Below, in pieces: positions 700-63,958 of a DNA stretch of 64,000 nucleotides. Made by a program: the position numbers and the translations under genes. This stretch comes from a virus, in IMG/VR virus record IMGVR_UViG_3300036770_008028, positions 62,001 to 126,000 of that record, one strand, 5' to 3'. The notes beneath the pieces were generated by a model. It did not search any database. It saw only the letters and a program-made list of their open reading frames with translations, and was not told where the DNA came from. Each line of letters starts with the position of its first letter. Positions within the stretch are counted from its first letter, which is position 1.

Positions 700-3600
700 A
701 TGGCCAAAACCGCTAGACAGACTGCTATTTTCGGTGTAGAAGACTGGAAAAGACTGTATCAGACTTTCCGTGAAGCCGACTTCCAATCCTATGATTTCGA
801 GACCCTACGCAAGAGTTTTGTTGACTATCTCCGCGTGTACTATCCGGAAACGTTCAATGATTACATAGAATCTTCTGAATTCATAGCCCTGCTTGATGTG
901 ATGGCGTTCATGGGCCAGGCTCTGGCCTTCCGTAATGATCTCAATGCTAGGGAAAACTTCTTAGACACTGCGGAGCGACGAGATTCTGTGGTTCGTTTGG
1001 CCAACTTGGTTAGTTATACTCCCAAACGCAATCAAGCGGCACAGGGTTTTCTCAAAGTGTTTTCTGTGGCCACCACAGAAAATCTCACAGATTTCAACGG
1101 AATCAGCCTGGCCAATGTCACTGTGGATTGGAACGATCCTACCAATCCCAACTGGTTAGAACAGTTCACTCAGATCATCAATGCTGCCTTGGTGGACAGC
1201 CAGAAATTTGGACGTCCGGGTGCCAGCCAGAACATCCTGGGTGTGCGCACCGACGAGTATGCGATCAATATCGTGCCAGGCTTTCTAGCAGTGGTGCCTT
1301 ATACTGCCACGGTTGATGGTGTGAACATGCCTTTTGAAGCTGTGTCTGCCACCACCGAAGGACAAGACTACGTTTACGAACCTGCACCTCGACCATCGGG
1401 TGTGTTCAATATCTTGTATCGCAATGATCAACTGGGATTCGGCAGCGATGACACAGGCTTTTTCTTCCTGTTCAAGCAGGGTGTGTTGCAGAATCAGGAT
1501 TTCAACTTGGCAGAGGCAGTGGCCAACCGTACAGTGAATATCAACATTGAAGGCTGTAATCAAGAAGACCACTGGCTTTATAAACTGGATGACGTGGGCA
1601 GCATCGCAGATGAGTGGACGTTTGTGGAAAGCATCTATGCTGGCGCGGTTGAACAACTGGCACCGGACCAACGACAACTGTACTCTATAACCAGCCGCGC
1701 CAATGATCAGATCACTCTTACCTTTGGCGACGGGGTGTTTGCAGAAATTCCCGTAGGTTTTTTCCGAGCCTATGTACGGGCGTCAAATGGTCTGCAGTAT
1801 ATCATCAACCCGGAAGAAATGCAGGCGGTGCCTATCACGCTGTCTTACATATCTCGATTTGGCAGACTAGAAACACTGACCTTGACCTGTGGTATCACAC
1901 AACCTGTGAGCAATGCTCAGCCACGCGAGACCATACAGGAAATCAAGCAACGTGCTCCGGCGCGTTACTACACCCAGAACAGGATGGTGAACGGTGAAGA
2001 CTACAATAACTTTCCCTTCACGAAGTTCAATTCTATCATCAAGAGCAAGGCCGTGGCCCGCAGTAGCATCGGTACAAGTCGTTACATCGATCTCACGGAT
2101 ATCACCGGAAAATATTCATCTACCAATATCTTTGCCAGCGACGGGCTGATCTATCGCGAGAATGTGTTGCCCACTTTCAATTTCGCATGGATCAATCGCA
2201 ACGAGATCGTGGATGTGATCAACAATTCAGTGGAACCATTGTTGGGCACACGCAGCCTCAACCAGTTTTACTATGCCAATTTCATCCGTCCCAATCTCGC
2301 TGTGCTCAATCTATCTTGGCAGCAGAGCACGAGATTGGTCAACGAAACAACTGGATTTTTCTATGTAGGCACTGCGGCCTCGCCGAGACCCATTGGAGAG
2401 TTTTCCAGCAACAACACCAGATACATCACACAGGGCAGCCTGATTAAATTTGAACCACCCGCGGGATTTTTCTTTGATGCCAACAATCGGCTGGTGGCAG
2501 GTGTACCTGTGCGAGCCGATGAAAAATTGGTAGTCTGGGCCACAGTCACAGCAGTGGTAGGTGATGGCACCAATCAAGGACAGGGCAATCTCGACGATGG
2601 ATCTGGCCCAGTGACCTTGAACAATTTCGTGCCAACTGGCGCACGAGCCACACAGGTCATTCCTAAATTTTCCACAGATCTTACCAGCACTGTAGAAAAC
2701 AGCGCGATACAGCAGATCGAACTGTTTCGTAATTTCGGCCTGGGATATAACAATCTCGCAGGTGAATGGTACGTGATCACCAGCACCAATCTCGCTGCTG
2801 ATGCTGCATTCAGTCTGGCCAACCAGCAGAGCACCGCAGGAACCAATCTTGATGCATCGTGGCTGGTGCAGTTTGTCACGGATGGTGTGAGTTATACCGT
2901 GACCAGCCGCGGCCTAGATTATCTCTGGGGATCAGTGATACAGACACGTTTCACATTTGATGGCAGCGAAGAAGTCTACGATAGCCGCACAGGCCTGGTG
3001 ATCAATGATTTCGTCCGAGCGCTCAAGACCAACAGTCGACCTGATACCAACGAACCATTGACCAATGATATCACCATGGACATCATCGCGCAGCCGGTTG
3101 AAAGCGATGGATATGTCAACGATTATCAGGTCGTGGTTAGTTACGCTGACAGCGATGCTGATGGGGTCGCTGACGATCCTGATTTCTTTGATACCTTGGT
3201 AGCGCCCACAGTGGATTCCACACGCAAACTGGTGTTCTTGCAACTAGTCACTGACTTCGATGATCTTGAGAGATATCTTCCAGTGGCCAGCGGAGTGGTT
3301 AACACGCTTTATGCAACCAAAGATGCCATAGAATTAGTGAAAACTGAATTTGTAGATGGCCAGATTTTTTACGCCACTACAGAACAGGCTTTCTATGAAC
3401 TAGAAGTTGACGTGATCAATGGTGTGATCCAGCGTGTTCTGGTACCTCGCACAGACTTTGAATCTCGGGTGGGACGCCAGGATCTTTATTTCCAATATCG
3501 TCACAATTCGCCATTGACCAACGTGATCGATCCGGGTGTGACCAATATCATCGATCTCTATGTAGTGGTGCAGGAATACTATACCCAGTATCAGAATTAC

Positions 3601-4170
3601 ATACGTGACACCACTGGCTCTGTTCCAGAGCCTCCTATTCCGACTCTGGGACAGTTGACCACGGCCTATTCTGGACTCAATGATTTCAAGATGATATCGG
3701 ATAACATCGTACTGAATTCTGTGTTATTCAAACCCTTGTTTGGCGCTAAAGCCGCTCCAGAACTCAGAGCAGTGATCAAAGTGGTGCGTGCGCCAAAGAC
3801 CACGGCTTCGGTAAGCGAGATCAAGAGCCAGGTAGTGGCCAATATGAACAACTATTTCAGCATTGACAAATGGGACTTTGGTGACAGTTTCTTCTTCTCG
3901 GAGTTGGCAGCATATCTGCATGAGCAGATGGGCAGCATCATCAGTTCTGTGGTGTTGGTGCCGTTGAATCCTCTCAAGAGTTTTGGAGATCTCTACGAAA
4001 TAAGATCCGCACCTAACGAGATTTTCGTCAATGCTACCACGGTCACTGACGTAGAAGTGATCGAAGCATTGACACAGAGTAATCTCCGTAGCCAGACCGC
4101 AGTTTCTGGACTGGCACCTACCAGCATCAGCCAAGGTACTGCAGGCCGCGGCACAGTGACAGGCGCATGA
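700..4170 (+). CDS. gp6: gp6-like baseplate wedge protein, enlarged
   Basis: This 1156-residue protein has an N-terminus typical of gp6 of T4-like phages: 'FREADFQSYDFETLRKSFVD' followed by 'YYPETFNDYIESSEFIALLD' and 'MAFMGQALAFRNDLNARENF'. gp6 dimerises to form the inner ring of the baseplate. T4 gp6 is about 660 residues. Here extra beta-rich segments lie in the middle (roughly residues 500-900), and the conserved-looking C-terminal part (about 950-1130) includes 'LFGAKAAPELRAVIKVVRAP'. The gene follows gp25 by 47 nt and is preceded by CATAAATA at 674. It ends in TGA one nucleotide before the ATG of the giant structural gene, so the two are probably translationally coupled. Confidence 0.88.
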   Translation: MAKTARQTAIFGVEDWKRLYQTFREADFQSYDFETLRKSFVDYLRVYYPETFNDYIESSEFIALLDVMAFMGQALAFRNDLNARENFLDTAERRDSVVRLANLVSYTPKRNQAAQGFLKVFSVATTENLTDFNGISLANVTVDWNDPTNPNWLEQFTQIINAALVDSQKFGRPGASQNILGVRTDEYAINIVPGFLAVVPYTATVDGVNMPFEAVSATTEGQDYVYEPAPRPSGVFNILYRNDQLGFGSDDTGFFFLFKQGVLQNQDFNLAEAVANRTVNINIEGCNQEDHWLYKLDDVGSIADEWTFVESIYAGAVEQLAPDQRQLYSITSRANDQITLTFGDGVFAEIPVGFFRAYVRASNGLQYIINPEEMQAVPITLSYISRFGRLETLTLTCGITQPVSNAQPRETIQEIKQRAPARYYTQNRMVNGEDYNNFPFTKFNSIIKSKAVARSSIGTSRYIDLTDITGKYSSTNIFASDGLIYRENVLPTFNFAWINRNEIVDVINNSVEPLLGTRSLNQFYYANFIRPNLAVLNLSWQQSTRLVNETTGFFYVGTAASPRPIGEFSSNNTRYITQGSLIKFEPPAGFFFDANNRLVAGVPVRADEKLVVWATVTAVVGDGTNQGQGNLDDGSGPVTLNNFVPTGARATQVIPKFSTDLTSTVENSAIQQIELFRNFGLGYNNLAGEWYVITSTNLAADAAFSLANQQSTAGTNLDASWLVQFVTDGVSYTVTSRGLDYLWGSVIQTRFTFDGSEEVYDSRTGLVINDFVRALKTNSRPDTNEPLTNDITMDIIAQPVESDGYVNDYQVVVSYADSDADGVADDPDFFDTLVAPTVDSTRKLVFLQLVTDFDDLERYLPVASGVVNTLYATKDAIELVKTEFVDGQIFYATTEQAFYELEVDVINGVIQRVLVPRTDFESRVGRQDLYFQYRHNSPLTNVIDPGVTNIIDLYVVVQEYYTQYQNYIRDTTGSVPEPPIPTLGQLTTAYSGLNDFKMISDNIVLNSVLFKPLFGAKAAPELRAVIKVVRAPKTTASVSEIKSQVVANMNNYFSIDKWDFGDSFFFSELAAYLHEQMGSIISSVVLVPLNPLKSFGDLYEIRSAPNEIFVNATTVTDVEVIEALTQSNLRSQTAVSGLAPTSISQGTAGRGTVTGA

Positions 4171-27123: not shown

Positions 27124-27572
27124 AACAGGTTCCTGTGTCTCTGATGATACAATCCCATCATTGTAACGGATCAATGTCTTTGAAACTGTTCAACGATGAT
27201 CGGAATCTTCTAGATTTGACAAGTCTAGAATCGGGCCATCACAAACTAGATTTCATGATCGACTGGCCTTCAAAGATAAGGATCTTTGTCGAAGGAAAAA
27301 ATCAAAACGATACCGAGGTCGACAGCGGTGGTAATGTGATAGCAGATAAAGCCATTGAACTCATCTCAATCATGATAAACAATTTTCCATTACATCCTGA
27401 TCTAATAGATAAATTATGTTGCTGCCGCAGATCAAATCAACAGTCTATAAGTCATGAGAATTATTGGGGCTTTAATGGACTAGTGGAAATCATTTTCGAT
27501 CATGCCAACCCATTGAGATTTATGTTGGCATTATCGAGTAAATTTGAAATACCACGATTAGAAAATCAATGA
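27120..27572 (+). CDS. Predicted beta-sandwich protein, possibly carbohydrate-binding
   Basis: A 150-residue protein with alternating beta pattern. The segment 'GNVIADKAIELISIMINNF' followed by 'ENYWGFNGLVEIIFDHANPL' aligns in order with the 156-residue protein at 54221-54691 ('IIDHYVEIMDIEIASIRLEH' and 'LRLNGIWSMDFTTPFWQW'). Both sit immediately beside a radical SAM gene. The shape suggests a CBM-like sandwich, but no ligand site is proven. ATGA overlaps on both sides show coupled translation. AT-rich like the preceding gene. Confidence 0.5.
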   Translation: MKQVPVSLMIQSHHCNGSMSLKLFNDDRNLLDLTSLESGHHKLDFMIDWPSKIRIFVEGKNQNDTEVDSGGNVIADKAIELISIMINNFPLHPDLIDKLCCCRRSNQQSISHENYWGFNGLVEIIFDHANPLRFMLALSSKFEIPRLENQ

Positions 27573-28969: not shown

Positions 28970-30296
28970 TCTAGAATTCCGCCAGCAAGTGCTGGACCCA
29001 ATCTCTTCCAGTTTCTGCGGAGCCAAATGGTACAATGCCACCATCTGGCTAGGTTCCGGCATGACCACATCATGCCACCATCCCCCGGCGCACCCGGTCG
29101 ACATTGATGCAGTGAAATCCAATCCCCGCCTGTTGCACAACACCGCCCAGAAGAAACAGGACCGTGCAGACATGCAGGCTGGTCGCAGGCCCGCAGGCTG
29201 TGAATACTGCTGGAAGATCGAAGACATGGGGCGCGATGCTGTGAGCGATCGCATATATAAGAGCAAGATTTATGAAATACATGACCTACATACGGCTGCT
29301 CGCACGCCGCCAGATCAAGATATCAATCTCAAAACCCTTGAGATATCATTTGATCGTACTTGCCAGTTTGCTTGCTCTTACTGTAATCCTGCTTTCAGTA
29401 GTACATGGGTTAAAGATATTAGGAACCATGGACCCTACCTCGACCTTGTTTCAGACGGTAGAAATCATTTTACTCACGAGCATGATAGTGCTCAACGCTT
29501 TCGCTTTGGAGAACGTAATCCATACGTGGATGCGTTTTTCTCGTGGTGGGAAACCGATCTTCACCGCACACTGGACGAACTCCGTATTACAGGCGGCGAG
29601 CCGCTCATGTCCGGATACACATGGAAACTTGTTGACTGGTTCCGGGACAATCCAGGACGATCCAAAACCAGACTGGCCATAAACTCAAATCTTGGCATGG
29701 AATTTGACACGATCAAGAGATTGTTGGATTCCACCCAGGGCCTTGAACTAGATATCTATACTTCAAACGAAAGCATGGACGTACATGCCGAGTATATCCG
29801 CGATGGCCTGGCCTGGCCCCAGTGGATCTACAACATGCGACAGATCATGGAATCCGGCCGTGTGCGAGCTCTGCACGTGATGTGCACCATAAATGCCTTG
29901 TGCCTAGAGAGCCTGCCGGAATTCCTGGATCAACTCATGTGGTGGAAAAATCACTACGGAACCAATTTCCCCAACTTTACCCTGAATATCTTGCGCTTCC
30001 CCAGTTTCCAGTCGCCCTTGGTATTGCCTGACGATATCCGCATGCGGCATCGAGATCGTCTACAGTGCTGGCTGGATCAGTGGACCAACAATGTCATGCT
30101 GCAGGAACATGAACGCAACCATGTCAGACGGCTGATAGACTATCTTGACGTTGTCAAAACTCCGCACAGCGACGCGTTTGACATGCCACGATTACACAAC
30201 GACTTCCGTCGGTTTTTTACCCAGTACGATCAACGCCGCGGTAAAGATTTTGTCACGACTTTTTCAAATCTCAAAGATTGGTATCTCTCATTATGA
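28956..30296 (+). CDS. Radical SAM protein, array member 2
   Basis: A 446-residue protein from ATG 28956; an in-frame GTG at 28947 with its own weak ribosome site is an alternative. Cluster motif C136-x3-C140-x2-C143 ('CQFACSYCN'), 'ITGGEPLMS', and 'VHAEYIRDGLAW'. The N-terminal 'SSFCGAKWY', 'TSCHHPPAHP' and 'GCEYCWKIED' match array member 1 closely, so these two are the nearest paralogues. It ends with 'FFTQYDQRRGKDFVTTFSNL', also shared with member 1. It overlaps the preceding and next genes. Confidence 0.8.
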   Translation: MPNNDLEFRQQVLDPISSSFCGAKWYNATIWLGSGMTTSCHHPPAHPVDIDAVKSNPRLLHNTAQKKQDRADMQAGRRPAGCEYCWKIEDMGRDAVSDRIYKSKIYEIHDLHTAARTPPDQDINLKTLEISFDRTCQFACSYCNPAFSSTWVKDIRNHGPYLDLVSDGRNHFTHEHDSAQRFRFGERNPYVDAFFSWWETDLHRTLDELRITGGEPLMSGYTWKLVDWFRDNPGRSKTRLAINSNLGMEFDTIKRLLDSTQGLELDIYTSNESMDVHAEYIRDGLAWPQWIYNMRQIMESGRVRALHVMCTINALCLESLPEFLDQLMWWKNHYGTNFPNFTLNILRFPSFQSPLVLPDDIRMRHRDRLQCWLDQWTNNVMLQEHERNHVRRLIDYLDVVKTPHSDAFDMPRLHNDFRRFFTQYDQRRGKDFVTTFSNLKDWYLSL

Positions 30297-31999
30297 CCAT
30301 GCTGGAACTGATAGATCAGTATCAAAAAATTTATGACGTCGTGGCAGTGATTAATCTGGATCAGTGCTTTGACGTACCGTTTTATCAAAGAGAAATTTGG
30401 CTCAAATCGCAGATCGAACCTGCGTGGAGAAACCAATTCACTGAAAATCAGCGGGTGATTTTCACCATGACTCAGGGCGAGGAGTATAGTTCGCAGCACA
30501 GCCAGCGACCCAACATACTTTCTATTGTGCAAAAACTTTTAAATGAAGTTGATATCAGCAATTGTTTTGTGATTGTGCTGACCAATGACTGCCAAAATGT
30601 CGAATCACAAAAACAATATCTCAAACAGATCAGCACAGATAGCACTGCAATCACTTGGTACGTGTTTGATGATCCTCCATGGCCTGGATCAAAGCATGTG
30701 AAATCTTTGCCACAGGATTATGAATACAATAGCAGCCGTCCTGTGAAGATCGACCTGTCAGATCTGGACATCCGACAGCAGAATCTCTTGATGCAGAGCA
30801 AAGTGTTTTGCATGTACCCATGGGTACATCTACATGCCTACCCCACCGGAGAAGCCTGGCCGTGCTGCCAATCAGAGATGAAAGCCGGTGCAGTAGGTAA
30901 TTGTAAAACGCATACCTTGAGCGAGATCTGGAACAACACGCGTATGAAAGAACTACGAGTCAACATGTTGACAGGTATCCCAGATCCGCTGTGTGTGCGA
31001 TGTTACGAGCAAGAAGACAGCGGTTTTTTTTCTGGTAGACAAAGCGCAAATAAACATCACGGTCATCACATAGGACGTGTGGCTCATACCGCTGAAGATG
31101 GCCACCTTAGTCAATTCTCATTGACATATTGGGACATCCGATTTTCAAATCTGTGCAATCTACGTTGCCGCAGTTGTGGTCACATCTTTTCGAGCCAGTG
31201 GTACCAGGATCAGGCCAAACTGGCAGGGCATGAGTGGAAGTCGCGTAATCAAGTGTTGAACTATGCCGGCCGCACAGAACTCGACATGTGGGAACAACTA
31301 GAACCTCACTTGGACTGTGTGGAGCAGATCTATTTCGCTGGTGGCGAACCTTTGCTGATGGAGGAGCACTATCGCATCCTGGACGAGCTGGTGAAACGTA
31401 AACTGTTCCATGTGCGTCTAATCTACAATACCAATTTCACACACACCGATCTCAAAGGCCGTAGTGTGTTTGAGTACTGGAAGCAATTTCACAGTGTATC
31501 TGTTGGAGCCAGCTTGGACGCACAGGAAGAAAAAGCAGAATACATCCGGAAAGGCACTGATTGGGCCGCAGTAGAACAGAACAGACGAGACATGTTGGCC
31601 ATATGTCCAGAAGTGGATTTCTATGTATCCCCCACACTGAGTGTGCTCAATGCCTGGCATTTGCCTGATTTTCATCGATCCTGGGTTGATAAAGGCTTGA
31701 TACGAGCACAGGATCTTAATGTAAACATTTTGCAGGATCCGGCATATTATCGTATAGACATAGCGCCCATGGAGTACAAACAGCGATTGAGAGTGAAGTT
31801 TGAAGAACATCTTGATTGGTTACGATCTCGAGACCCGTTGCAACGTGCTACAGTGGGATTTACCAGCGCGATTAAATTCATGATGGCCACCGATAACAGT
31901 CATCTCCTTGACAAATTTTGGTCAAAAACCAAAGAACTGGATGCTATCCGAGGAGAAAACATACTGCAAGTGCTGCCAGAATTAGAGGCCATGCAATGA
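30293..31999 (+). CDS. Radical SAM protein with N-terminal extension and twitch-like domain, array member 3
   Basis: The longest of the array at 568 residues; ATG 30293 overlaps the previous stop (ATGA). Residues 1-165 form an extra region without cysteine motifs. Then comes a twitch-like set 'FCMYPWVHLHAYPTGEAWPC' (about 172-191) and 'CVRCYEQED' (about 235). The radical SAM motif is C288-x3-C292-x2-C295 ('CNLRCRSCG'), with 'FAGGEPLLM' and 'KAEYIRKGTDW'. This domain order, twitch before barrel, is seen in a phage-enriched radical SAM group. Substrate unknown. Confidence 0.82.
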   Translation: MTMLELIDQYQKIYDVVAVINLDQCFDVPFYQREIWLKSQIEPAWRNQFTENQRVIFTMTQGEEYSSQHSQRPNILSIVQKLLNEVDISNCFVIVLTNDCQNVESQKQYLKQISTDSTAITWYVFDDPPWPGSKHVKSLPQDYEYNSSRPVKIDLSDLDIRQQNLLMQSKVFCMYPWVHLHAYPTGEAWPCCQSEMKAGAVGNCKTHTLSEIWNNTRMKELRVNMLTGIPDPLCVRCYEQEDSGFFSGRQSANKHHGHHIGRVAHTAEDGHLSQFSLTYWDIRFSNLCNLRCRSCGHIFSSQWYQDQAKLAGHEWKSRNQVLNYAGRTELDMWEQLEPHLDCVEQIYFAGGEPLLMEEHYRILDELVKRKLFHVRLIYNTNFTHTDLKGRSVFEYWKQFHSVSVGASLDAQEEKAEYIRKGTDWAAVEQNRRDMLAICPEVDFYVSPTLSVLNAWHLPDFHRSWVDKGLIRAQDLNVNILQDPAYYRIDIAPMEYKQRLRVKFEEHLDWLRSRDPLQRATVGFTSAIKFMMATDNSHLLDKFWSKTKELDAIRGENILQVLPELEAMQ

Positions 32000-33213
32000 A
32001 TGTGCCTCACGAAAAATTCTGTATCCTGCCCTGGATCAGTTTAGAAGCCAGCCCTGTTGGCACAGTGCGACCTTGTTGTCTGGCAGAAGAAGAGATCTCT
32101 GACGATGACGGAAACAAGTTTGAATTGATCGACGCAGAATTTTCTTCAGTGCAAAACAGTAGATACATGCGAGATCTCAGACAGCAATTCTTGGATCAAA
32201 AACAACCACGCACCTGTCGCAAATGCTGGAACGAGGAGCGTGCTGGCCGGACCTCCAAGCGCATGCATACCTTGGACCGTCTCAAACACATGGTCACGGA
32301 CCGTGATTGGACCGCAGATGCCAAGCCATTGATGTTCTTGGATCTCAAATTGGGAAATATCTGTAATCTCAAATGCCGTATCTGTGGGTCATGGAGCAGC
32401 AGCCAGTTTGCCGCCGAAGAGTTGCATTTCTTGAGGCAAGAAGAAAAAAAGACCAGTGTACACTATGAGATGCTGAAAAAAGGAGCATGGCCTCGAGAGA
32501 ACAAACGATTCTGGCAAGAAGTCGACACTGTGCTTGACCAGATACGCTATATCGAATTCACCGGCGGCGAACCTTTCATGATACGTGAGCACTTTGAAAT
32601 GTTACAGGGCATCGTGGATCGTGGTATCGCACACCAGGTCGAGATACACTATAATACCAATGGTACACAATGGCCGGAAGCTGCCGAACAGATCTGGCAG
32701 CACTTCAAAACAGTAGAGATCGCTTTCAGCATCGACGACCTTGACAGCAGATTTGAGTATCAAAGAACCAATGCGATATGGCAAGAAGTGATCACGAATC
32801 TACAGCGTTTCCGAGATCTTAGGTCTCGATACAAAAATATAACTCTGCAGGTATGTTCCACAGTGAACGTGTTCAATGTGTTTTATCTTGAAAGCCTGGC
32901 ACACTGGATAGACTCTCAGGATTTTGATTTCATTTATTGGAACATGCTACACGAGGCCTATTATCTTTCTGTGGGCACCATGCCAGACAAGGCCAAACAA
33001 GAAGCCATACGTAGGTTAGAAAACGCCGAGGTGAGAGATTTCCATCGCAGCGAATTCAATCGAGTGGCTGATTTCATCCGCAATGGTAACAGCCTGGACG
33101 GGAATATCTTGCGCATGAAAGTGGCCGACCTAGATCGCAAACGCAGTACGGATCTCAGAGTGGATCATCTGGATCTGGCCTTGGCCATTGATTACAACGG
33201 TCCCAATGGATAA
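31996..33213 (+). CDS. Radical SAM protein, array member 4
   Basis: A 405-residue protein; ATG 31996 overlaps the previous stop (ATGA), so the longer in-frame extension to 31918 is not used. Twitch-like N-terminus 'FCILPWISLEASPVGTVRPC' plus 'TCRKCWNEE'. Cluster motif C123-x3-C127-x2-C130 ('CNLKCRICG'), 'FTGGEPFMI', and a degenerate 'RFEYQRTNAIW' in place of (A/G)EYIRxGxDW. The most divergent array member at that conserved site. Confidence 0.8.
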   Translation: MNVPHEKFCILPWISLEASPVGTVRPCCLAEEEISDDDGNKFELIDAEFSSVQNSRYMRDLRQQFLDQKQPRTCRKCWNEERAGRTSKRMHTLDRLKHMVTDRDWTADAKPLMFLDLKLGNICNLKCRICGSWSSSQFAAEELHFLRQEEKKTSVHYEMLKKGAWPRENKRFWQEVDTVLDQIRYIEFTGGEPFMIREHFEMLQGIVDRGIAHQVEIHYNTNGTQWPEAAEQIWQHFKTVEIAFSIDDLDSRFEYQRTNAIWQEVITNLQRFRDLRSRYKNITLQVCSTVNVFNVFYLESLAHWIDSQDFDFIYWNMLHEAYYLSVGTMPDKAKQEAIRRLENAEVRDFHRSEFNRVADFIRNGNSLDGNILRMKVADLDRKRSTDLRVDHLDLALAIDYNGPNG

Positions 33214-34504
33214 ACCGACTACCTTGTGTATGGCGCCCTGGACTCATACCTATCTGAGTCCGCAGACTGAGCGTCGCCTGTGCTGCGCCAGCCGAGAACC
33301 TGCACAGAATTTCCAGCAGTACATTGACACAGCCGCGGGCACAGGCGAATACATTCCCATCACGCTGGAACAGCACTGGAACTCGGAACACATGCGTTCG
33401 GTTCGCAGGCGCATGATGGCCGGAGAGATCTTGCCCGAATGCGACGTGTGCAACAACAAACTGTTGAACACCGATGTATATCGCACATACTTCAATGGAT
33501 TGTTCGGTCACAAATACCAAGAGGCCATGCACAGCACAGACCAAGATGGCCGTACCACTATGCTGCCAGTGAGCTGGGATTATCGATTCAGTAATCTCTG
33601 TAATTTCAAATGTCGTACCTGTGGCGACATGCTGAGTTCGGCATGGGAAAGTGAACAACGGCAGCACAAAATGATAGATTGGACCAATCCTAAGAACGGT
33701 TGGATGGTTCCAGCAGTACGTCAAGAAATCGTCAAGTTCCAAGAAACTCAGATAGAACAAGAATTCGCAGAAGCAGTAGAACAACACCGTGTGGAAGAAA
33801 TATATTGGGTGGGAGGCGAGCCATTGATGTATGAGCAACACTGGCGATACATGAAACGTATCGTAGAACTCGGTGATGGACCCAGACTCTATGCCAGATA
33901 TAATACCAATCTCTCTAGGGTAGATTATCGCGGTATCAATCTTTATCTGGACATCCTACGTCATGTAAGAGATTGGCAGATCTGCGCCAGCCTCGATGGA
34001 ACCGGTGCTGTGGGAGAATATATCCGCACCGGACTTGACTACGAGCAGTGGAAACAAAACTTTGCTCGCGGACTAGACATATCCCGCCATCGCAGGCAGA
34101 TGAGAATCGACTTCACTCTTACACTTCCGGGACTGTTCGAAGTAGCCAATATTCAAGCATTGTCTCAAGAATTTGACGTGGACATCCTGGCCAAGGTTGT
34201 GTTCAGTTTCACGCCGGACATCATAATGAGTCCGTTGGTATTACCACGTAATTTACTGGATCGCATGATAGATCGATCACTAGATGGTCTACCCCCGGGC
34301 GCACTGCGAGACGTATTGACTCAATTAAAAACCAGACCAACCTTCCAGGAACAATGGCCGGATACATGGCAGGCAGGATTGATCAAAGGCAAGCGACGAA
34401 TTCTCAAGATTGAAAGTGTACGCAATGATACCTACAAATTTGAGGACATCATACAACAAGATGAGGAGATATATGCCTGGTGGCAAGATATTAGAACGGA
34501 TTGA
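33206..34504 (+). CDS. Radical SAM protein, array member 5
   Basis: A 432-residue protein from ATG 33206 (8-nt overlap). Twitch-like start 'LCMAPWTHTYLSPQTERRLC' and 'ECDVCNNKLL'. Cluster motif C132-x3-C136-x2-C139 ('CNFKCRTCG'), 'WVGGEPLMY', and 'VGEYIRTGLDYEQW'. It ends the radical SAM run and overlaps the next, unrelated gene by 32 nt. Confidence 0.8.
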   Translation: MDKPTTLCMAPWTHTYLSPQTERRLCCASREPAQNFQQYIDTAAGTGEYIPITLEQHWNSEHMRSVRRRMMAGEILPECDVCNNKLLNTDVYRTYFNGLFGHKYQEAMHSTDQDGRTTMLPVSWDYRFSNLCNFKCRTCGDMLSSAWESEQRQHKMIDWTNPKNGWMVPAVRQEIVKFQETQIEQEFAEAVEQHRVEEIYWVGGEPLMYEQHWRYMKRIVELGDGPRLYARYNTNLSRVDYRGINLYLDILRHVRDWQICASLDGTGAVGEYIRTGLDYEQWKQNFARGLDISRHRRQMRIDFTLTLPGLFEVANIQALSQEFDVDILAKVVFSFTPDIIMSPLVLPRNLLDRMIDRSLDGLPPGALRDVLTQLKTRPTFQEQWPDTWQAGLIKGKRRILKIESVRNDTYKFEDIIQQDEEIYAWWQDIRTD

Positions 34505-35567
34505 AATAGGTTTACGCAACACAACCGATGAATCGATTCTCAGGATTTATATGGATGCCTATGATAACAGCTTGAGTCGAAAATGGCTGCAATCACTAGA
34601 GCACTGCCTGGCGGAACAATATCATCTAGAGAAAAATTACTGTTTCATGGGCTTTGTCACACATCGTCGTGACGGCGAATTTATTCTGCGTCAGATCAAC
34701 AACTCGATCGCAGCCATCAATGACAGTGCGCTGCCATATCACATAGATGATCAGTTTACCATGGAGAACACTATCCATGAGCATCCGTTGCCTGGCTGGC
34801 AGCATGGTAAAATGCTGAATCAAGATAAATTTAATGCGCTACATAGATATTTTGAAGATCTACAAGGAGTCAGCGGCAATCTCAGTGGATTATACAAACA
34901 GGCCACTGCTGAGATTCGTTGGCACATCAGGCAATTGAATTTGCTCTGTCACGAATTTGAAACATGGGCAATCAGTTATCGCAAATTACACATGGCACCC
35001 GAATGGCAGAGACCAAGTCAATTGATGTGCTGGCTAAATGCTCCAAGATTTATGCTGGATCAAGAAGACTACGAACTTTTTGGCATTGACACCATCAATA
35101 GATCACTGGGCGGAGTGTTTGTGGGTGTAAACAAAGCTGTGGGCAAACATCATTGGGAGGTTTTCCATGATGAAGGTAGGGACAGTAGAATAAATGAACT
35201 TACAACGTCAACCATGAAGGTTCAGACAGAGGCTTCGGCAGATTTTGACATTGAGTGGGCCAGAGATCCCGGTGGGTTTGACTGGCAGATACAGGAACTC
35301 AATGAATTTCGACGATGGTTGATAGTCAATGGATTTGATCCAGAAGACAAATCATTGACCATCGGTCATCCTCAGATTGGCCAGATAGATCTTTTGAACT
35401 CCTTTGGTACAGACCATTATGACAGCATATGGAAAATATTGTCCCAGCATCTAGATGTGAAATACATAAAGACATCGACGGTTAGAGCGGATTATCCTTA
35501 CTGTTGGAGCGATCAAGATTTCATGCATCAACAGATAGAATTGATTGAAAATGGAGCATCATTATGA
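34473..35567 (+). CDS. Unknown 364-residue phage protein
   Basis: I choose ATG 34473 because AGGAG lies 4-5 nt before it; the frame is open further up to 34410. The protein is soluble and rich in aromatic and acidic residues, with 'ALPYHIDDQFTMENTIHEHP' and 'NAPRFMLDQEDYELFG', and no family I can name with certainty. Histidine/aspartate clusters such as 'HIDDQ' and 'HEHPLPGW' could bind metal, but no spacing pattern is conclusive. Translated with the radical SAM array and the 33-residue peptide, with overlaps on both sides, so it likely acts in the same process. Confidence 0.6.
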   Translation: MPGGKILERIEIGLRNTTDESILRIYMDAYDNSLSRKWLQSLEHCLAEQYHLEKNYCFMGFVTHRRDGEFILRQINNSIAAINDSALPYHIDDQFTMENTIHEHPLPGWQHGKMLNQDKFNALHRYFEDLQGVSGNLSGLYKQATAEIRWHIRQLNLLCHEFETWAISYRKLHMAPEWQRPSQLMCWLNAPRFMLDQEDYELFGIDTINRSLGGVFVGVNKAVGKHHWEVFHDEGRDSRINELTTSTMKVQTEASADFDIEWARDPGGFDWQIQELNEFRRWLIVNGFDPEDKSLTIGHPQIGQIDLLNSFGTDHYDSIWKILSQHLDVKYIKTSTVRADYPYCWSDQDFMHQQIELIENGASL

Positions 35568-54711: not shown

Positions 54712-55836
54712 TTACTTAGCGTGTGATAGATGTCTGAGATTTGATGCCAGAGGCCTCACAGGATACCAATCACTCAGTATGACTGGCAACCAATCACTAT
54801 CTCGCTGGTGTGGCACAGCAATTTTCGTAATCGTTTCTATGTCGCGCAATCCTTGTTGCCAGACTCCAAGTTCACTGCTGTTTTTATCATGGATGAGGTT
54901 TTTGGCTGACATACTTTCGGGACTGTTTGGATTTTGCGCGACTCGTGACTTAAGCCATCCCTGCCGCGCGCTGCTGTTGTCTACACAGGTTCGGCCCATG
55001 GCTCGGTTCCACACTTCATATTGCCAGTCCAGACATTGGTTACCTTGCACTTTGTGGAAATGATCAAACCCGTCAGGACCCATGACCATTATCATATTTT
55101 CAAAATGATCTATGGCCATGTGACACTGAGCCACGTGCAAATCGGTCAGATCATTGGTCATGTAGAAGAATTCGCAATCGGTATTCATGTACTGATACAT
55201 TCCGGCATCAACACCGAAATTGTACCATGTACCGTCGGCAAGCAGCACCCGAGGTTTGTCGTGAGCCCAGATATCAGCGCGTCGGCTGTGTTGGTCAATG
55301 ATCCGGGCAGTGCTAGATATATGATTTTGTAAAAAATATCTATGCATTTTTGGATACATAATGCTGCAGCCAGGACTGAAAATCCAATCTTCCCCTAGAT
55401 CACAGTATACCGAAGCAAAATGCCAGTGGTTGACAGGTACATGATTTACCACAAGTTTGGGCATGTGCTGTTGTTTTACCTGATGTGCGTAAGATACCGC
55501 ACTGTGGATTTCGGGATCATCAAACCACTGCCGATCATAGATCACCACCTCATCCAAGGCGATGCCATTGGCAACGAAGGCATCCAACACAGTGGTACTG
55601 TCCCATCCCCCGCTGAACCATAGAGTCAACCAATCATATCGGTCGCGCAGTTGCAGGCAACGCTGTCGAAGTAGGTCTTGCCATGTCGCAGACGGTCTTG
55701 CAAAATTGCACTGCCCAAATGTGGAGCGTAAAAAATTGAAACGTATACGAGATACATCTCCTTGTGCCTCTCGGAAAGCATCTATCTTGCTATGTGTACG
55801 ATAATTTCCCACCTCATAATAAAGTTCCTGTATCAT
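54712..55836 (-). CDS. PP-loop ATPase, asparagine-synthase-like
   Basis: A 374-residue protein. The PP-loop S75-G-G-W-D-S80 ('LWFSGGWDSTTVLDAF') binds the pyrophosphate of ATP, as in asparagine synthetases, thiouridylases and related adenylating enzymes. No N-terminal glutaminase domain with a catalytic Cys2 is present, so the nitrogen or sulfur donor differs or a partner supplies it. ATG 55836 overlaps the permease stop (ATGA). It could activate a carboxylate or amide in the same pathway as the oxygenase and radical SAM genes. Confidence 0.8.
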   Translation of the reverse strand: MIQELYYEVGNYRTHSKIDAFREAQGDVSRIRFNFLRSTFGQCNFARPSATWQDLLRQRCLQLRDRYDWLTLWFSGGWDSTTVLDAFVANGIALDEVVIYDRQWFDDPEIHSAVSYAHQVKQQHMPKLVVNHVPVNHWHFASVYCDLGEDWIFSPGCSIMYPKMHRYFLQNHISSTARIIDQHSRRADIWAHDKPRVLLADGTWYNFGVDAGMYQYMNTDCEFFYMTNDLTDLHVAQCHMAIDHFENMIMVMGPDGFDHFHKVQGNQCLDWQYEVWNRAMGRTCVDNSSARQGWLKSRVAQNPNSPESMSAKNLIHDKNSSELGVWQQGLRDIETITKIAVPHQRDSDWLPVILSDWYPVRPLASNLRHLSHAK

Positions 55837-56582
55837 CTACGTGGTATCAATCTTGAAAATGACCATGACATGATGCCACCCAAAATCATGATCATGAGCA
55901 GGCACGCGTAGACCTCTAGGTGATCGAATCTTCCCTTGAAGTCATACATCAAGGTACCAATGCCAATGTGTCCACCCACTGTGCCAAACACTATTTCGAC
56001 CGCAAACAGGATGCGCCACAGGAACATGAAATAGGTTTTGCTCAATGACACCAATCCCGGCAGCATGCTGGGCACATAGACCTTGATCACTGCCTGCCAC
56101 GGCGTGAGTCTTAGGTCACGTATCTGTCGGCTCCATGTGTCGTGACTGATGGTCACTAAGCTGTACACACTAGGCAAAAAAACCCAAAGCACGCCCCATG
56201 TCATGAGGGTGAAAATCAGGCTCTGTGAAAATCCAAAGAAGATCAAAAAAACCGGTAACCAACTCATGGTCGGGGTGGGTCCCAGCATATCACAAAAATT
56301 TATGGTGAGCCGTCGGGCAAATTTGTTAGGGTATGTGGCCAGTACAATGACCAACATAAGAATCGACACCATGGCAAATGATACCACTGTCATCCAAACG
56401 CTGTTTGCCACTGCCTCTAGAAATTGCACCCTGCCCAGCATTTCAACCAGTTTTATCAGTACCAAATGTAGATGCGGCCACAGCAGCTGATTGTCTACCA
56501 CCCATGCTGTGGTCTGCCACAGCATGGCCAGCAGTAGCAGCATGGCCAGTCTAGTCTGAAAGGTATTGTTTGACATGGTCAT
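55833..56582 (-). CDS. ABC importer permease (nitrate/sulfonate/thiamine-precursor type)
   Basis: A 249-residue membrane protein with about six hydrophobic segments: the first at residues 11-30, then clusters near 60-85, 100-130 and 125-150, with two more after 180. The cytoplasmic EAA-like loop is 'IRDLRLTPWQAVIKVYVPSM' with 'LPGL' following, as in SsuC/TauC/ThiX-type permeases that contact the ATPase. The gene overlaps the ATPase by 32 nt and the PP-loop gene by 4 nt. With its neighbours it completes an importer in the inner membrane. Confidence 0.88.
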   Translation of the reverse strand: MTMSNNTFQTRLAMLLLLAMLWQTTAWVVDNQLLWPHLHLVLIKLVEMLGRVQFLEAVANSVWMTVVSFAMVSILMLVIVLATYPNKFARRLTINFCDMLGPTPTMSWLPVFLIFFGFSQSLIFTLMTWGVLWVFLPSVYSLVTISHDTWSRQIRDLRLTPWQAVIKVYVPSMLPGLVSLSKTYFMFLWRILFAVEIVFGTVGGHIGIGTLMYDFKGRFDHLEVYACLLMIMILGGIMSWSFSRLIPRR

Positions 56583-57180
56583 AGGTGATTTGTTCCGGTC
56601 GGAGTTTGATCAATGAGTCTGGGGTCAGCATGCAGCAGTGATCCGACAGCAAAGCGGCCTCGTCGATGTTGTGTGTGATCCATAGCACTCCTAAATTTTG
56701 TTCCCTGACCAATCTACGGAAGTCATCTGCTATGGTCATCGCAGTGAAACTATCCAGATGATTCAACGGTTCATCGCACAGCAGCAGTTCTGCTCCACGA
56801 TATATAGATCTCAACAACACAAAGCGCTGCCGTTGACCACCGCTGATCTCGTCAGGTCTGCGATCGATCAGCGGTGTAAGTTTCCAGCGCTCCGCCACTG
56901 TGGTCCAGGCTTCATTGACCTTGGCCAGCAGGAAATTTTGTTTCACGGTCATCCAGGGAAACAGTTGATTGTCTCCCTGGTACACACTGTGCAAGATTGG
57001 CTTGCCTATGATTCGACCTTGGTGTGCAAGGTCACCTCTGATGGACTCCAACAAGGTAGTTTTGCCCACCCCACTGCGGCCCATCAGTACCAGAATTTCT
57101 CCTGGCCTGATTTCGAGGTCAACCTGCGGTAGGCAAGCCACACCCTGCCGCAAGGGTTGAAAACCTTCAAGACGTATCAC
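56551..57180 (-). CDS. ABC importer ATPase subunit
   Basis: A 209-residue protein from GTG 57180, which overlaps the previous stop (GTGA); the frame extends to a TTG at 57219. Walker A 'GRSGVGKT' (34-41), Q-loop 'YQGDNQLFPWMTV', signature 'ISGGQRQR', Walker B 'LLLCDEPLNHLDS' and H-switch 'WITHN' are all intact, so it should hydrolyse ATP. Length and motifs fit the NitT/TauT group. Q-loop 'DNQLFPW' is as in SsuB/TauB. Confidence 0.92.
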   Translation of the reverse strand: MIRLEGFQPLRQGVACLPQVDLEIRPGEILVLMGRSGVGKTTLLESIRGDLAHQGRIIGKPILHSVYQGDNQLFPWMTVKQNFLLAKVNEAWTTVAERWKLTPLIDRRPDEISGGQRQRFVLLRSIYRGAELLLCDEPLNHLDSFTAMTIADDFRRLVREQNLGVLWITHNIDEAALLSDHCCMLTPDSLIKLRPEQITYDHVKQYLSD

Positions 57181-58136
57181 AGCAGATCTTCGCGCCAGAT
57201 GATGCTTTTTTGGTCCCAAGACTTCATGCTGCCTGCAGGTAGCATGCCCATTTCTTCAGTTAGATGCAACCAATCCATCACAGCAGGTGTGAATTTGGTA
57301 AAGGCAACTATGTTCATCTCTTTGTAGTAGCGCACGATGGTATCAGCGTCAAGGTCTTTGAGATCATGTCTTTCTACCATGGCTCGCGCCAGGACCGGCA
57401 TGTTAGTGTTGTACTCCTGCTGAGCCACCTTGATGGTATCCAGCAAGGCCAGTGCCAATTTGGGATTGTCTTTGGCCCATTGTGTGTTGATCACTGCAGA
57501 ATTAAGAAAGCCGGTTTGACCGGGATACAGCACTCGGTTACCCATTTCGCGCAATTTATTGCTGATTGGTGCTCCTTGGATAGCACAATCAATACCTTTC
57601 GTCCCACTGGCAAATGCCTGCAGTGTCTGTACTTGGCTGAGCAACACGATCTGGTCTTCCAGCGCCAAGGGGTCACCAAAATTATCGCGGGCCAGTTTCT
57701 GGATGATCAGATGACTGCCGCTCTGCTTGCCCGAAATGATGATGCTGCGTTTGTTGGCTTTGATGTCCTGGATATCTTTCACATAGGGCTTGCAGACCAA
57801 TGGGGCGTCTGAAGTATTGAACATGCTGATAAATTGCAGTTTTCCCGGAGACTCTTTGTGCAGTTTTACGATGGTGGGCAAACTGGCAATGTTGATGTGG
57901 CTCTTGCCAGTCATGAGATTGGTCAAGGCCTCCACTGAGCCTCTGGAATATTGGATTTCCAATTTTGCGTTGTTGATGCCGTGGCGCTTGGCCACTTCCG
58001 GAAAGTGTTTTTGCATGGACAGCACGATCATTTCCGGACTGGCCAATTTTACTGCGGTCAAAGTGAGCGTCTCGGCCCAGGCCACGGATGTGGTCAGTGC
58101 AGCGGCCATGACGGTCCCTAAAAAGATGCGTTTCAT
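57177..58136 (-). CDS. Periplasmic substrate-binding protein of the ABC importer
   Basis: A 319-residue protein. ATG 58136 has GGAG 8 nt upstream. The signal peptide is clear: MKRIF, a hydrophobic stretch, and AWA before ETLTL, with no lipobox Cys, so it is exported and soluble in a Gram-negative periplasm. The fold pattern ('LTAVKLASPEMIVLSMQKHF', 'EALTNLMTGKSHINIASLPT', 'DCAIQGAPISNKLREMG') fits the NMT1/SsuA/ThiY type-2 binding proteins, whose ligands include sulfonates, nitrate, riboflavin and thiamine precursors. The ligand cannot be deduced. First gene of the seven-gene operon, with the two-hairpin element in its leader or promoter. Confidence 0.88.
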   Translation of the reverse strand: MKRIFLGTVMAAALTTSVAWAETLTLTAVKLASPEMIVLSMQKHFPEVAKRHGINNAKLEIQYSRGSVEALTNLMTGKSHINIASLPTIVKLHKESPGKLQFISMFNTSDAPLVCKPYVKDIQDIKANKRSIIISGKQSGSHLIIQKLARDNFGDPLALEDQIVLLSQVQTLQAFASGTKGIDCAIQGAPISNKLREMGNRVLYPGQTGFLNSAVINTQWAKDNPKLALALLDTIKVAQQEYNTNMPVLARAMVERHDLKDLDADTIVRYYKEMNIVAFTKFTPAVMDWLHLTEEMGMLPAGSMKSWDQKSIIWREDLL

Positions 58137-58195
58137 CAAAAAATCTCCATAAAGATGTAAGTGAAATTGCTAGTAGAAGAACTCTACACACGGTA

Positions 58196-58316: not shown

Positions 58317-58880
58317 ATGAATGACTATTTTTTCCAACCAATAGATCTGCCACCGCTTCCGGAGCGCTTTGTCGAACAGGCTCTGACTGGAACTCGGACT
58401 GATCTCTTGGTGACCAGCGTTGACAGGCAGATACATGATCGAGGCAGTGTTTATCGTAATGCACAACTACAACGCTGGCGACTTAGCCAAGATCTGGTAG
58501 AGTGGCTGCACCAACAGGGCATCAAAGGATTCGACGACGTTTCGGTACAGACCATACAGCAAGGCGATACCTTGGGCCCGCACACTGACAGTTGGCAAAG
58601 CTGCAAACTGTTCTATCTTTTGGAACCGGGTGGTCCAAACGTGGAAACGATATGGTATCAGCAACCAGGACATGATTTGATCCGGGAAAAATTCCTTTTG
58701 ATTGAAGATACCAAGGACCTTGAAGTGGTTCATAGGATGGTTATTCCACCGCGGCAGTGGGGCTTCATCAATGTGCGAATTATACATGAAGTAAAAAACA
58801 TGACCAACCGCAGAGAAACTGTGGTTGCCAGTTTCACTGACTACATCGATTTCTCACCTTTGGTGGTGCAGAAAAAATAG
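58317..58880 (+). CDS. 2OG-Fe(II) oxygenase-like protein
   Basis: A 187-residue protein from ATG 58317; the in-frame start at 58290 has no ribosome site, and GTTAAATAAA precedes the ATG. Iron ligands H89-x-D91 ('LGPHTDSW') and H157 ('IIHEVKN'), with R166 ('NRRETVVASF') as the 2-oxoglutarate contact. A different family branch from the oxygenases at 25103 and 53478. Diverges from the ABC operon. The intrinsic terminator of the tmRNA lies at its 3' end on the opposite strand. Confidence 0.72.
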   Translation: MNDYFFQPIDLPPLPERFVEQALTGTRTDLLVTSVDRQIHDRGSVYRNAQLQRWRLSQDLVEWLHQQGIKGFDDVSVQTIQQGDTLGPHTDSWQSCKLFYLLEPGGPNVETIWYQQPGHDLIREKFLLIEDTKDLEVVHRMVIPPRQWGFINVRIIHEVKNMTNRRETVVASFTDYIDFSPLVVQKK

Positions 58881-58899
58881 GCCCCATAACAGGGCCTAT
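58877..58899 (-). terminator. Intrinsic terminator of the tmRNA transcript
   Basis: ATAGGCCC-TGTTATG-GGGCCTAT followed by a T-run on the minus strand, right after the tmRNA coding piece. On the plus strand a looser T-run also follows, so it may serve the gene at 58317 as well. Confidence 0.8.
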
Positions 58900-58924
58900 C
58901 CTGACATTTTTGATAACAAGGCAT

Positions 58925-59225
58925 GTCTGCCCCGGAGATCATGCTGCTAAGGCAAAGATCTCGTCATTGGATGCGTTGGCATCTATTGGTTTTGCTTGAT
59001 TTAGGGTCATCGCCTACCCCGCTGTCCACTCGGCTACTCCTTGCCCTGTCGAAACCATGTTCAGGCCCATCATAAGCAGTCGCAATCGGTATAGGTTGAT
59101 CAAATCTATACCAATCCGTCCTAAGCGTAACAACTGCTTATGGTGGACCTGCCGGGATTCGAACCCGGGTCCAGAACACATTTTGCTCTGCTTCATACAG
59201 CGATAATGACGAAACTGCCAGGACA
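58925..59225 (-). ncRNA. ssrA: Circularly permuted two-piece tmRNA
   Basis: The acceptor piece comes first: T-arm CCGGG-TTCGAAT-CCCGG, then CAGGTCC-ACCA ending at 59141. A 72-nt intervening segment (59140-59069) has TAAGCAGT pairing with ACTGCTTA and an inner GGTATAG/CTATACC hairpin. The coding piece starts at 59068 with GGGCCTG, which pairs with CAGGTCC through all seven positions, the third being G-U as required for alanine charging. 'GGTTTCGACAGGGC' follows. ACAGCG (59025-59020) pairs with CGCTGT (59202-59197), giving helix 2. The tag frame (58995-58939) reads AKPIDANASNDEIFALAA then TGA, with GAGATC/GATCTC enclosing the stop. The outer 5' end is approximate. Confidence 0.9.
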
Positions 59226-59324
59226 TGTACGGGCTTCGCCTGCCCTAAGGCCTCACACCTTATCGATCTTGCCAGTGGATTGATCAAGCGCCACTGGGGA
59301 TATACTCCTGCACAGTAAGTCTAT

Positions 59325-61838: not shown

Positions 61839-62297
61839 TGAGATCTCCTGTCGGGGCATGGCAGCGAGAGGTCGATGCTTCGTAAGCATCTGCGGGCGTT
61901 GCAGACCCTAACATCGCTGTGAATCCATGTCTAGTAGTTATCGCGAGAGGCCAAGACCAACTGCATCTCTCTGACTGATAGAGCATCGCGATAGTGAACG
62001 AGCATGAGGCTAGCGGCGCCGGGCGTTAGGGCTTACAAGGCCGCCCCGGTTGACATAACGCATTGCCCTTGACCCATGGTCAAGCCCACTGTGCTGTGTT
62101 TAAGACGCCAATGCTGGCGGAACCAGCCTTTGCCGGGCTACCAACCCGGCCTTGACATCCCCTGATGCGTGTTCATCTCCAGCCACGGAGCACGGCCTAT
62201 AACGGCTACAGCGGCCCAGGGTGGTAGTGCTTCCCTCACAGTTGGGATATAGTGGCCAGCCTGCTTTCTCTCACAGGCTTGACCATGGATCATTGGT
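61839..62297 (-). ncRNA. Hairpin-rich noncoding region, candidate structured RNA
   Basis: No convincing ORF in about 460 nt. On the minus strand several perfect stems occur: AGCCTG/CAGGCT, GCCGGG/CCCGGC, GCTGG/CCAGC, CTTGACC/GGTCAAG, GATGC/GCATC, and a larger TATCGCGA/TCGCGATA pair about 40 nt apart. The CATGGTCAAG block and its complement CTTGACCATG occur at both ends of the first half. I could not match RNase P RNA, 6S, SRP RNA, tmRNA, group I or group II cores. Strand is chosen because the flanking genes are on the minus strand. Confidence 0.4.
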
Positions 62298-62596: not shown

Positions 62597-62672
62597 TGGC
62601 CCGTCCAGGAGGAATCGAACCCCCGTATAGATGTTTAGAAGACACCTGCGTCATCCACTACGCTATGGACGG
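62597..62672 (-). tRNA. trnR-TCT: tRNA-Arg(TCT)
   Basis: Acceptor CCGTCCA/TGGACGG, T-arm with TTCGATT loop, anticodon loop CTTCTAA on a five-pair stem. CCA is encoded. Reads AGA. Confidence 0.92.
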
Positions 62673-62679
62673 ATTGTGC

Positions 62680-62753
62680 TGGAGCGCCCGGAGAGAATCG
62701 AACTCTCGATCCCACGTTGGCAACGTGGCGTTTTGCCCCTAAACTACGGACGT
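62680..62753 (-). tRNA. trnG-GCC: tRNA-Gly(GCC)
   Basis: Acceptor ACGTCCG/CGGGCGC with one A-C mismatch at the first pair, anticodon arm CCACG-TTGCCAA-CGTGG, T-loop TTCGATT, encoded CCA. Reads GGC/GGT. Confidence 0.9.
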
Positions 62754-62756
62754 TAG

Positions 62757-63227
62757 TTATGCGGCTCTCACGCTCTTGAGCCTGTCGGCGGCATAACTGG
62801 CAGCCCAGGCCACGGGCTTTACCATGGGGATCACATTGCATGTACCACGGATGTATCCGATAGCCTGTTGCACCACGCAACTGGATCCATGCATCTCGTT
62901 GGGATTTAGATCTAGGTGCACTTCGATGGGCCACCCTGCCAGCACCGGAGCCAACCTCTGGAACAGTTCGCTCACGCGATACACTTCGTTCATGAGACGC
63001 ATGCTGGGACGATTGTACCGCTGATCATAGTCGCGTTCGCGGTCCATCTCACCAAAGATCTTGCAACCATTGTTGCCGTTGCGATGGATCACAGCCACGG
63101 TGGTGTATTCGGCCCACCACTGTCGACCCACTTTGAAACGTTCTGAATCCGCACCAATATAGATGCGTGTGCCAGGCCCTAAGTCATGCACATAGATTTG
63201 TATTTGTTCTGGATCTATCCTTGGCAT
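62757..63227 (-). CDS. YkuK-like RNase H-fold protein
   Basis: A 156-residue protein from the second of two ATGs (63227), since GGGAGG lies 4 nt before it. 'RIYIGADSERF' (first strand with Asp), 'TTVAVIHRNGNNGCKIFGEM' and 'IEVHLDLNPN' (second acidic strand) match the DUF458/YkuK family of RNase H-like proteins, whose substrate is unknown. It is embedded inside the tRNA cluster, 4 nt before tRNA-Gly and about 25 nt after tRNA-Arg(TCG), so it is probably released from a common precursor transcript. Confidence 0.72.
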   Translation of the reverse strand: MPRIDPEQIQIYVHDLGPGTRIYIGADSERFKVGRQWWAEYTTVAVIHRNGNNGCKIFGEMDRERDYDQRYNRPSMRLMNEVYRVSELFQRLAPVLAGWPIEVHLDLNPNEMHGSSCVVQQAIGYIRGTCNVIPMVKPVAWAASYAADRLKSVRAA

Positions 63228-63252
63228 CATGCCTCCCTTGGTTATTTACTCT

Positions 63253-63329
63253 TGGCCGGTCCTGACGGATTCGAACCGCCGGCTTCCTGTTTCGAAGACA
63301 GGCACTCTAGTCCACTGAGTTAAGGACCG
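63253..63329 (-). tRNA. trnR-TCG: tRNA-Arg(TCG)
   Basis: Acceptor CGGTCCT/AGGACCG, anticodon arm CCTGT-CTTCGAA-ACAGG, T-loop TTCGAAT, encoded CCA. Reads CGA. Confidence 0.92.
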
Positions 63330-63333
63330 CGAC

Positions 63334-63426
63334 TGGTGGAGAGTGTGGGATTCGAACCCACGGCCCCGATTTCTCGAAGCAACACCTTAGCAGGGTGCCG
63401 ATTTAAACCGACTCATCCAACTCTCC
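63334..63426 (-). tRNA. trnS-GCT: tRNA-Ser(GCT)
   Basis: Acceptor GGAGAGT/ACTCTCC, anticodon loop CTGCTAA, a normal long variable arm of about 20 nt, T-loop TTCGAAT, encoded CCA. Reads AGC/AGT. Confidence 0.92.
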
Positions 63427-63430
63427 GACA

Positions 63431-63523
63431 TGGTGGAAGAGGTGAGACTCGAACTCACACACCCATCTCTGGGCCTTCGGTTTTCAAGACCGCTGCCGCT
63501 ATGCCGATTCGGCTAACTCTTCC
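63431..63523 (-). tRNA. trnS-TGA: tRNA-Ser(TGA)
   Basis: Acceptor GGAAGAG/CTCTTCC, anticodon loop CTTGAAA, long variable arm, T-loop TTCGAGT, encoded CCA. Reads TCA. Confidence 0.92.
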
Positions 63524-63636
63524 ATATTCGTACCGGTTACCGGATCCGGTGCAGACTTTTGGTCCCTGCGGCTCGTAAACTCACCCACCCTTGACGCCAT
63601 GCTCTGCAGAGGGCCAGCCGGGTGACGCTGTGTGCT

Positions 63637-63714
63637 TGGTACCCCTGCTCAGATTCGAACTGAGAGTGCTTCTCCTTTTGAGAGAGACGGCTTTACCAAT
63701 TTGCCCACAGGGGT
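63637..63714 (-). tRNA. trnL-CAA: tRNA-Leu(CAA) with short variable loop
   Basis: Acceptor ACCCCTG/CAGGGGT, discriminator A, CCA. Anticodon stem TCTCT/GGAGA with loop CTCAAAA (anticodon CAA). D-arm 'GGCAAATTGGTAAAGCC' is like leucine tRNAs. The variable loop is only AGCACT (6 nt), unlike the long arm of bacterial leucine tRNAs. Reads TTG if charged with leucine. Confidence 0.82.
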
Positions 63715-63715
63715 C

Positions 63716-63792
63716 TGGTGCGGAACCTGGGATTCGAACCCAGACTGTGAGGTGTTTAAGACCTTGACCTCTGCCGATTGGGCTAGTTCCGC
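63716..63792 (-). tRNA. trnL-TAA: tRNA-Leu(TAA) with short variable loop
   Basis: Acceptor GCGGAAC/GTTCCGC, discriminator A, CCA. Anticodon loop CTTAAAC on a stem with one A-C mismatch, variable loop ACAGT (5 nt), T-loop TTCGAAT. Class I shape. Reads TTA if charged with leucine. Confidence 0.8.
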
Positions 63793-63798
63793 TTGATA

Positions 63799-63876
63799 TG
63801 GTACCCCAGGAGAGACTCGAACTCTCAATGAACAGTTTCTAAGACTGCCGTGTATACCTGATTCCACCACCGGGGC
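63799..63876 (-). tRNA. trnL-TAG: tRNA-Leu(TAG) with short variable loop
   Basis: Acceptor GCCCCGG/CTGGGGT, discriminator A, CCA. Anticodon arm GCAGT-CTTAGAA-ACTGT. D-arm 'TGGTGGAATCAGGTATACAC' is characteristic of leucine tRNA, yet the variable loop is only TCATT (5 nt). Reads CTA. Confidence 0.85.
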
Positions 63877-63882
63877 ATTGAT

Positions 63883-63958
63883 TGGTGCTGATTGAGAGAA
63901 TCGAACTCCCGACCGGCGCATTACGAGTGCGTTGCTCTACCAACTGAGCTAAATCAGC
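63883..63958 (-). tRNA. trnT-CGT: tRNA-Thr(CGT)
   Basis: Acceptor GCTGATT/AATCAGC, D-arm GCTC-AGTTGGTAGA-GC, anticodon loop CTCGTAA, T-loop TTCGATT, encoded CCA. Reads ACG. Confidence 0.92.

Follow-up and report, generated by a model that had tools for sequence, protein, structure and literature searches.

Two-piece tmRNAs are known from alphaproteobacteria, cyanobacteria and some betaproteobacteria (PMC3968760), and phages have them too. Indeed, a 2022 study that screened 18,146 phage genomes counted 53 two-piece tmRNAs among 133 distinct ones (PMC9004378), and a 2025 database holds 79 phage tmRNA sequences (PMC11915505). The tmRNA of the Methylophilales phage Melnitz and those 53 two-piece calls, made by ARAGORN, are, like the gene that we report here, phage-encoded and permuted, with a full tag frame and a mostly aquatic origin (PMC9004378), while Marzo and other Menderavirus phages resemble our case in their beta-type permuted tmRNA beside tRNAs, contractile tail and size of about 160 kb (PMC8928761). 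With Melnitz and Marzo already published, our gene is another phage two-piece tmRNA, and a clear and conserved one; the novelty implied by the first-pass annotation of this DNA was overstated, since such RNAs were published in 2022 (PMC9004378).

The window, by which we mean the whole 64,000-nucleotide stretch analysed, is positions 62001–126000 of a 157,498-bp IMG/VR virus record. The permuted tmRNA that had been proposed there, with no strand named, is called by ARAGORN (as tmRNA*) on the minus strand (Table 1), and a check against covariance models, which had been suggested as a way to verify it, puts both relevant families above threshold: RF04321 (tmRNA_permuted) matches 59202–58939 with 126.6 bits (E 2.3e-24, cut-off 47) and RF01850 (beta_tmRNA) matches 59234–58873 with 107.2 bits (E 1.2e-31, cut-off 84), both on the minus strand. 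Among the permuted models of the Rfam clan beta_tmRNA is the best, and no alpha or cyano tmRNA model is listed for the window above its own cut-off.

Table 1. Features of the tmRNA gene and its surroundings, in window coordinates
Feature	Position	Strand	Evidence or remark
Baseplate wedge subunit	700..4170	+	phrog_10646, E 1.8e-276; marks record as contractile-tailed phage
Permuted tmRNA (ssrA) gene	58848..59233	-	ARAGORN; RF04321 and RF01850
Terminator hairpin and T-run	58872..58900	-	Read from sequence; within RF01850 match, folded
Helix 5	58935..58962	-	GAGAUC 58962-58957 with GAUCUC 58940-58935
Tag stop codon UGA, inside helix 5	58939..58941	-	
Tag reading frame ANASNDEIFALAA, 13 codons	58942..58980	-	ARAGORN; synonymous changes versus L130
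Helix 2 proximal 3' strand CAGGGCA	59042..59048	-	Pairs with UGUUCUG 59178-59172
5' acceptor strand GGGCCUG, predicted 5' end of coding piece	59062..59068	-	Read from sequence
Intervening segment, long hairpin	59069..59140	-	72 nt, z -5.06
Acceptor piece (helix 2 5' strand, T arm, 3' acceptor strand, discriminator A, encoded CCA)	59141..59202	-	Predicted extent at 5' end
3' acceptor strand CAGGUCC	59145..59151	-	7/7 pairs with 59068-59062
Nine tRNA genes, array continues beyond window	62597..63958	-	
157-aa RNase H-like protein, marker gene of related phages	62757..63230	-	PF04308, phrog_11311

The architecture, too, is much as first described. The acceptor piece precedes the coding piece, and when the two are brought together all seven acceptor pairs can be read from the sequence, including G3-U70, with CCA encoded at 59143–59141. 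The separator, claimed to be a foldable 72 nt, is exactly that long and has a predicted energy of -24.5 kcal/mol (0 of 200 shuffles as stable); in the predicted fold its ends place CCA close to G1. The two pieces also form helix 2, as had been stated, through UGUUCUG/CAGGGCA and CGCUGU/ACAGCG, the tag does end with its UGA inside a stem, and the terminator expected downstream is there as a hairpin with a T-run, which the output of a simple terminator scan does not include. The whole gene folds better than 100 of 100 shuffles (z -5.68). Upstream there is no clear promoter, the sole same-strand candidate (59354–59327, 9/12) being at chance level, and a GAUGC/GCAUC hairpin at the resume codon, by eye missing from relatives that share the tag, was taken as chance.

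How well are these elements kept among viruses? A pattern scan of IMG/VR gave at least 120 stretches, most of them with an ARAGORN permuted tmRNA, and in the 87 of these tmRNAs with extractable strands G3-U70 is kept without exception and all seven acceptor pairs are present in 85 (swapped partners form 5.37 on average). At the level of sequence, the pairs of the acceptor, the T stem and the seven-pair proximal helix 2 covary across about 90–100 relatives, 0 of 1000 permutations equalling the observed pairing (99 sequences); for distal helix 2, by the same simple test and on the same 99 sequences, 65 of 1000 permutations reach it, which is not significant. In 88 of 89 viral sequences the intervening segment, although variable in sequence, closes by pairing of its ends. 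In related virus records, gathered through the nearby RNase H-like gene and including some near copies, RF04321 scores above its cut-off in 18 of 27, or 16 of 19 among those of at least 100 kb. A permuted tmRNA is, in other words, common in this group of large phages, which are aquatic and have big tRNA arrays.

The tag is where we depart from the first reading of the sequence, which gave it 18 residues. ARAGORN reports ANASNDEIFALAA, of 13 residues, with the resume codon GCC at 58980 following UAGAU; the longer version adds AKPID upstream of the resume codon, which is unconserved in relatives, and the UAGAU-GCC motif fits 13. The tag ends in ALAA. In L130, a viral relative, the same 13 residues are encoded with seven nucleotide substitutions, all seven synonymous where random change would give 23% (p about 3e-5), and as far as sequence can tell the window tag frame is under selection for its amino acids. 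The call for L134 begins five codons early, and the same 13 residues follow from the later resume codon; L128, L129, L132 and L344 have ATAANDEIFALAA, ANAANDEIFALAA or ANAANDEVFALAA. In L128 and L132 helix 5 reads GAGAUU/AAUCUC, a compensatory change relative to GAGAUC/GAUCUC. A search of 84,980 species genomes of bacteria and archaea for NDEIFALAA followed by TAA or TGA found no match, but NDEIFALAA-stop is present in seven other viral contigs.

Viral tags run to 13 residues in the window and up to 33 elsewhere, and nearly all of the bacterial beta tags sampled have 10, of the form ANDExFAxAA or near it. Ten further IMG/VR loci (L029, L057, L065, L076, L082, L086, L091, L109, L110 and L114) have permuted tmRNAs with tags of 28–31 residues that start ANADT[FY]DF and have the common core FTGN[TS]V, conserved across distinct contigs, and several phages with such tags have genes in common with the window phage. 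Two other viral permuted tmRNAs, L048 (5586–6017) and L118 (2486–2931, on a contig of 355 kb), have long basic tags ending AKAEAFAV and AAADAAFA rather than AA, and such tags could be ones that do not mark proteins for degradation.

What, then, might the phage do with this RNA? We consider it very probable that the gene encodes a functional two-piece beta-type tmRNA serving rescue and tagging during infection, the role that the first-pass annotation had put forward and the one that we too grade as most likely. That reading draws on the form of the gene, the pairing under selection, the synonymous changes in the tag, the compensation in helix 5, the self-closing intervening segment and the recurrence in relatives. 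The window sequence keeps the parts for alanine aminoacylation (G3-U70, acceptor, T arm and CCA) and for two-piece assembly (helix 2 and acceptor), and the 13-residue tag frame and its termination are also kept. A single precursor would be transcribed and fold through the intervening hairpin, whereupon host RNase P at G1 and 3' processing at CCA would release two RNAs, one acceptor and one coding. Charging would fall to host AlaRS, and host SmpB and EF-Tu would bring the RNA to ribosomes that have stalled on a broken message, where the nascent chain would gain ANASNDEIFALAA, its ALAA end acting as a signal for host ClpXP-type proteases. SmpB was sought in the phage record at E up to 1 with no match, and none was found in 20 other virus records with a permuted tmRNA (records that may be incomplete), so the host protein is the likely partner. 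The phage would probably gain by recovering ribosomes and amino acids at a time of infection when messages are being degraded, beside its own large tRNA set; the tRNAs of the record, in an array near the tmRNA and on its strand, cover most amino acids.

Other readings deserve a hearing. The RNA might chiefly tag chosen host or phage proteins, a reprogrammed proteolysis in which altered tags shift the choice of protease or adaptor, and the departure of viral tags from the ten-residue bacterial form, together with those that do not end in AA, speaks for it; however, the window tag keeps its canonical ALAA end, and we think this unlikely as the main use. A still less probable role is that of a decoy which would bind to SmpB or to the ribosome and thereby block trans-translation in the host, as has been proposed for the TLD-only RNA of mycobacteriophage DS6A. 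A TLD-like RNA does inhibit tmRNA in E. coli (PMC4131195, PMC11915505), and the failure to find smpB in the phage would suit such a part, but for a decoy the tag would be superfluous, and here its frame is complete and selected for its amino acids, compensatory change preserves helix 5, and the acceptor pairs are all intact. It is because the tag itself is conserved that we regard a DS6A-like role as the less likely one.

One might also wonder whether the gene belongs to the phage in any useful sense, given that tmRNA genes of bacteria often serve as integration sites and that a lone contig may be a chimera. That the phage carries a host gene captured recently and useless to it, or that host DNA was mis-binned, seems to us very improbable: tail sheath and baseplate wedge genes lie on the same record, the tmRNA recurs in most related phages, and NDEIFALAA-stop is present in viral contigs but in none of the 84,980 species genomes. 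In a 127-column tree with many unresolved forks and a bacterial sample skewed by the pattern used to collect it, the window sequence falls among viral sequences, nearest to L093 at 89%, and not with the sampled bacteria, a placement that rests on few columns.

Beside the tmRNA gene on the minus strand (55833–58139) three genes follow one another, for a protein that is probably exported, for an ABC ATPase (PF00005) and for a permease (PF00528); together they look like a phage-borne uptake transporter. A phosphate-binding-like protein (PF12849) is found at L006:12464-13474, and in 12 of 123 viral loci relatives of it are encoded no more than 3 kb from the tmRNA. Directly after the baseplate wedge gene comes an open frame of 4768 codons (4172–18478), and several similar long frames, with CSAPW/CxxC-like motifs near the start, occur at 27569–35567 and elsewhere in the record, one of this type having a sub-threshold radical SAM match.

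The permuted form had also been offered as a clue to the host lineage, and here we disagree. Isolated phages with a permuted tmRNA include Stenotrophomonas phages Marzo, DLP_6, QDWS359 and BUCTxx99, Xanthomonas phages X1 and Rb1, Pseudomonas phage PaMx31, Alcaligenes phage QDWS595 and 'Synechococcus' phage BUCT-ZZ01; the beta-model cut-off is passed by Marzo, DLP_6, PaMx31, QDWS595 and BUCT-ZZ01, and RF04321 alone by QDWS359, BUCTxx99, X1 and Rb1. The recorded hosts of the beta-type RNAs are therefore Stenotrophomonas, Pseudomonas aeruginosa, Alcaligenes and Synechococcus, of which only Alcaligenes is in the beta group, and since such RNAs occur in phages outside the beta lineage, the form makes a poor host marker. 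By itself, it is not supported as a guide to host lineage on the sequences compared, and we would caution against reading a host from it. Similarity of the RNA serves no better: the best tmRNA matches, sought in 399 Burkholderiales genomes and in 200 genomes from the best family (75–80% over about 85 nt), are limited to the conserved core, blastn of the gene against isolated phages gives nothing at E 1e-5 and core matches only at E 0.5, and the NDEIFALAA-stop tag is without a bacterial match in the species genomes searched. The same phage record also contains a Polynucleobacter-1 RNA (L004:10836-10971, 100 bits) and a freshwater-2 RNA (L003:16165-16253, 68 bits) by Rfam, weak hints that suggest a freshwater betaproteobacterial setting.

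Stenotrophomonas, Xanthomonas and P. aeruginosa hosts probably have one-piece tmRNAs of their own. The authors of the Marzo study liken its tmRNA to one of beta class from S. maltophilia (PMC8928761), for which reason we give the one-piece state of these hosts only as probable. A tempting idea, which we hold tentatively and would not yet bet on, is that beta-type permuted tmRNAs form an old lineage that viruses have maintained and that passes between large phages whatever the form of the host's own tmRNA, with tags shaped by the phages; if this is true, a permuted tmRNA works in hosts whose own is of one piece. The function of such an RNA can be tested in the laboratory, since phages that have one of this kind have been isolated (Menderavirus, Samunavirus).

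Set against known systems, then, the window gene has the gene order, acceptor, T arm, helix 2, helix 5 and ALAA end of the betaproteobacterial two-piece tmRNA (RF01850), and differs from it in a tag that is longer and starts ANAS. The tmRNAs of mycobacteriophages Bxz1 and Wildcat and of Bacillus phage G are of one piece, and the hosts are actinobacterial or firmicute. Like ours, they are phage-encoded (PMC4131195). Melnitz has an alphaproteobacterial kind of tmRNA with a glutamine riboswitch, whereas that of the window is of the beta kind and has no riboswitch beside it that Rfam could find, and Marzo, for all its likeness, has another tag (VAANDDSYTVRIAA by ARAGORN) and a diverged sequence, and belongs to a different phage group.
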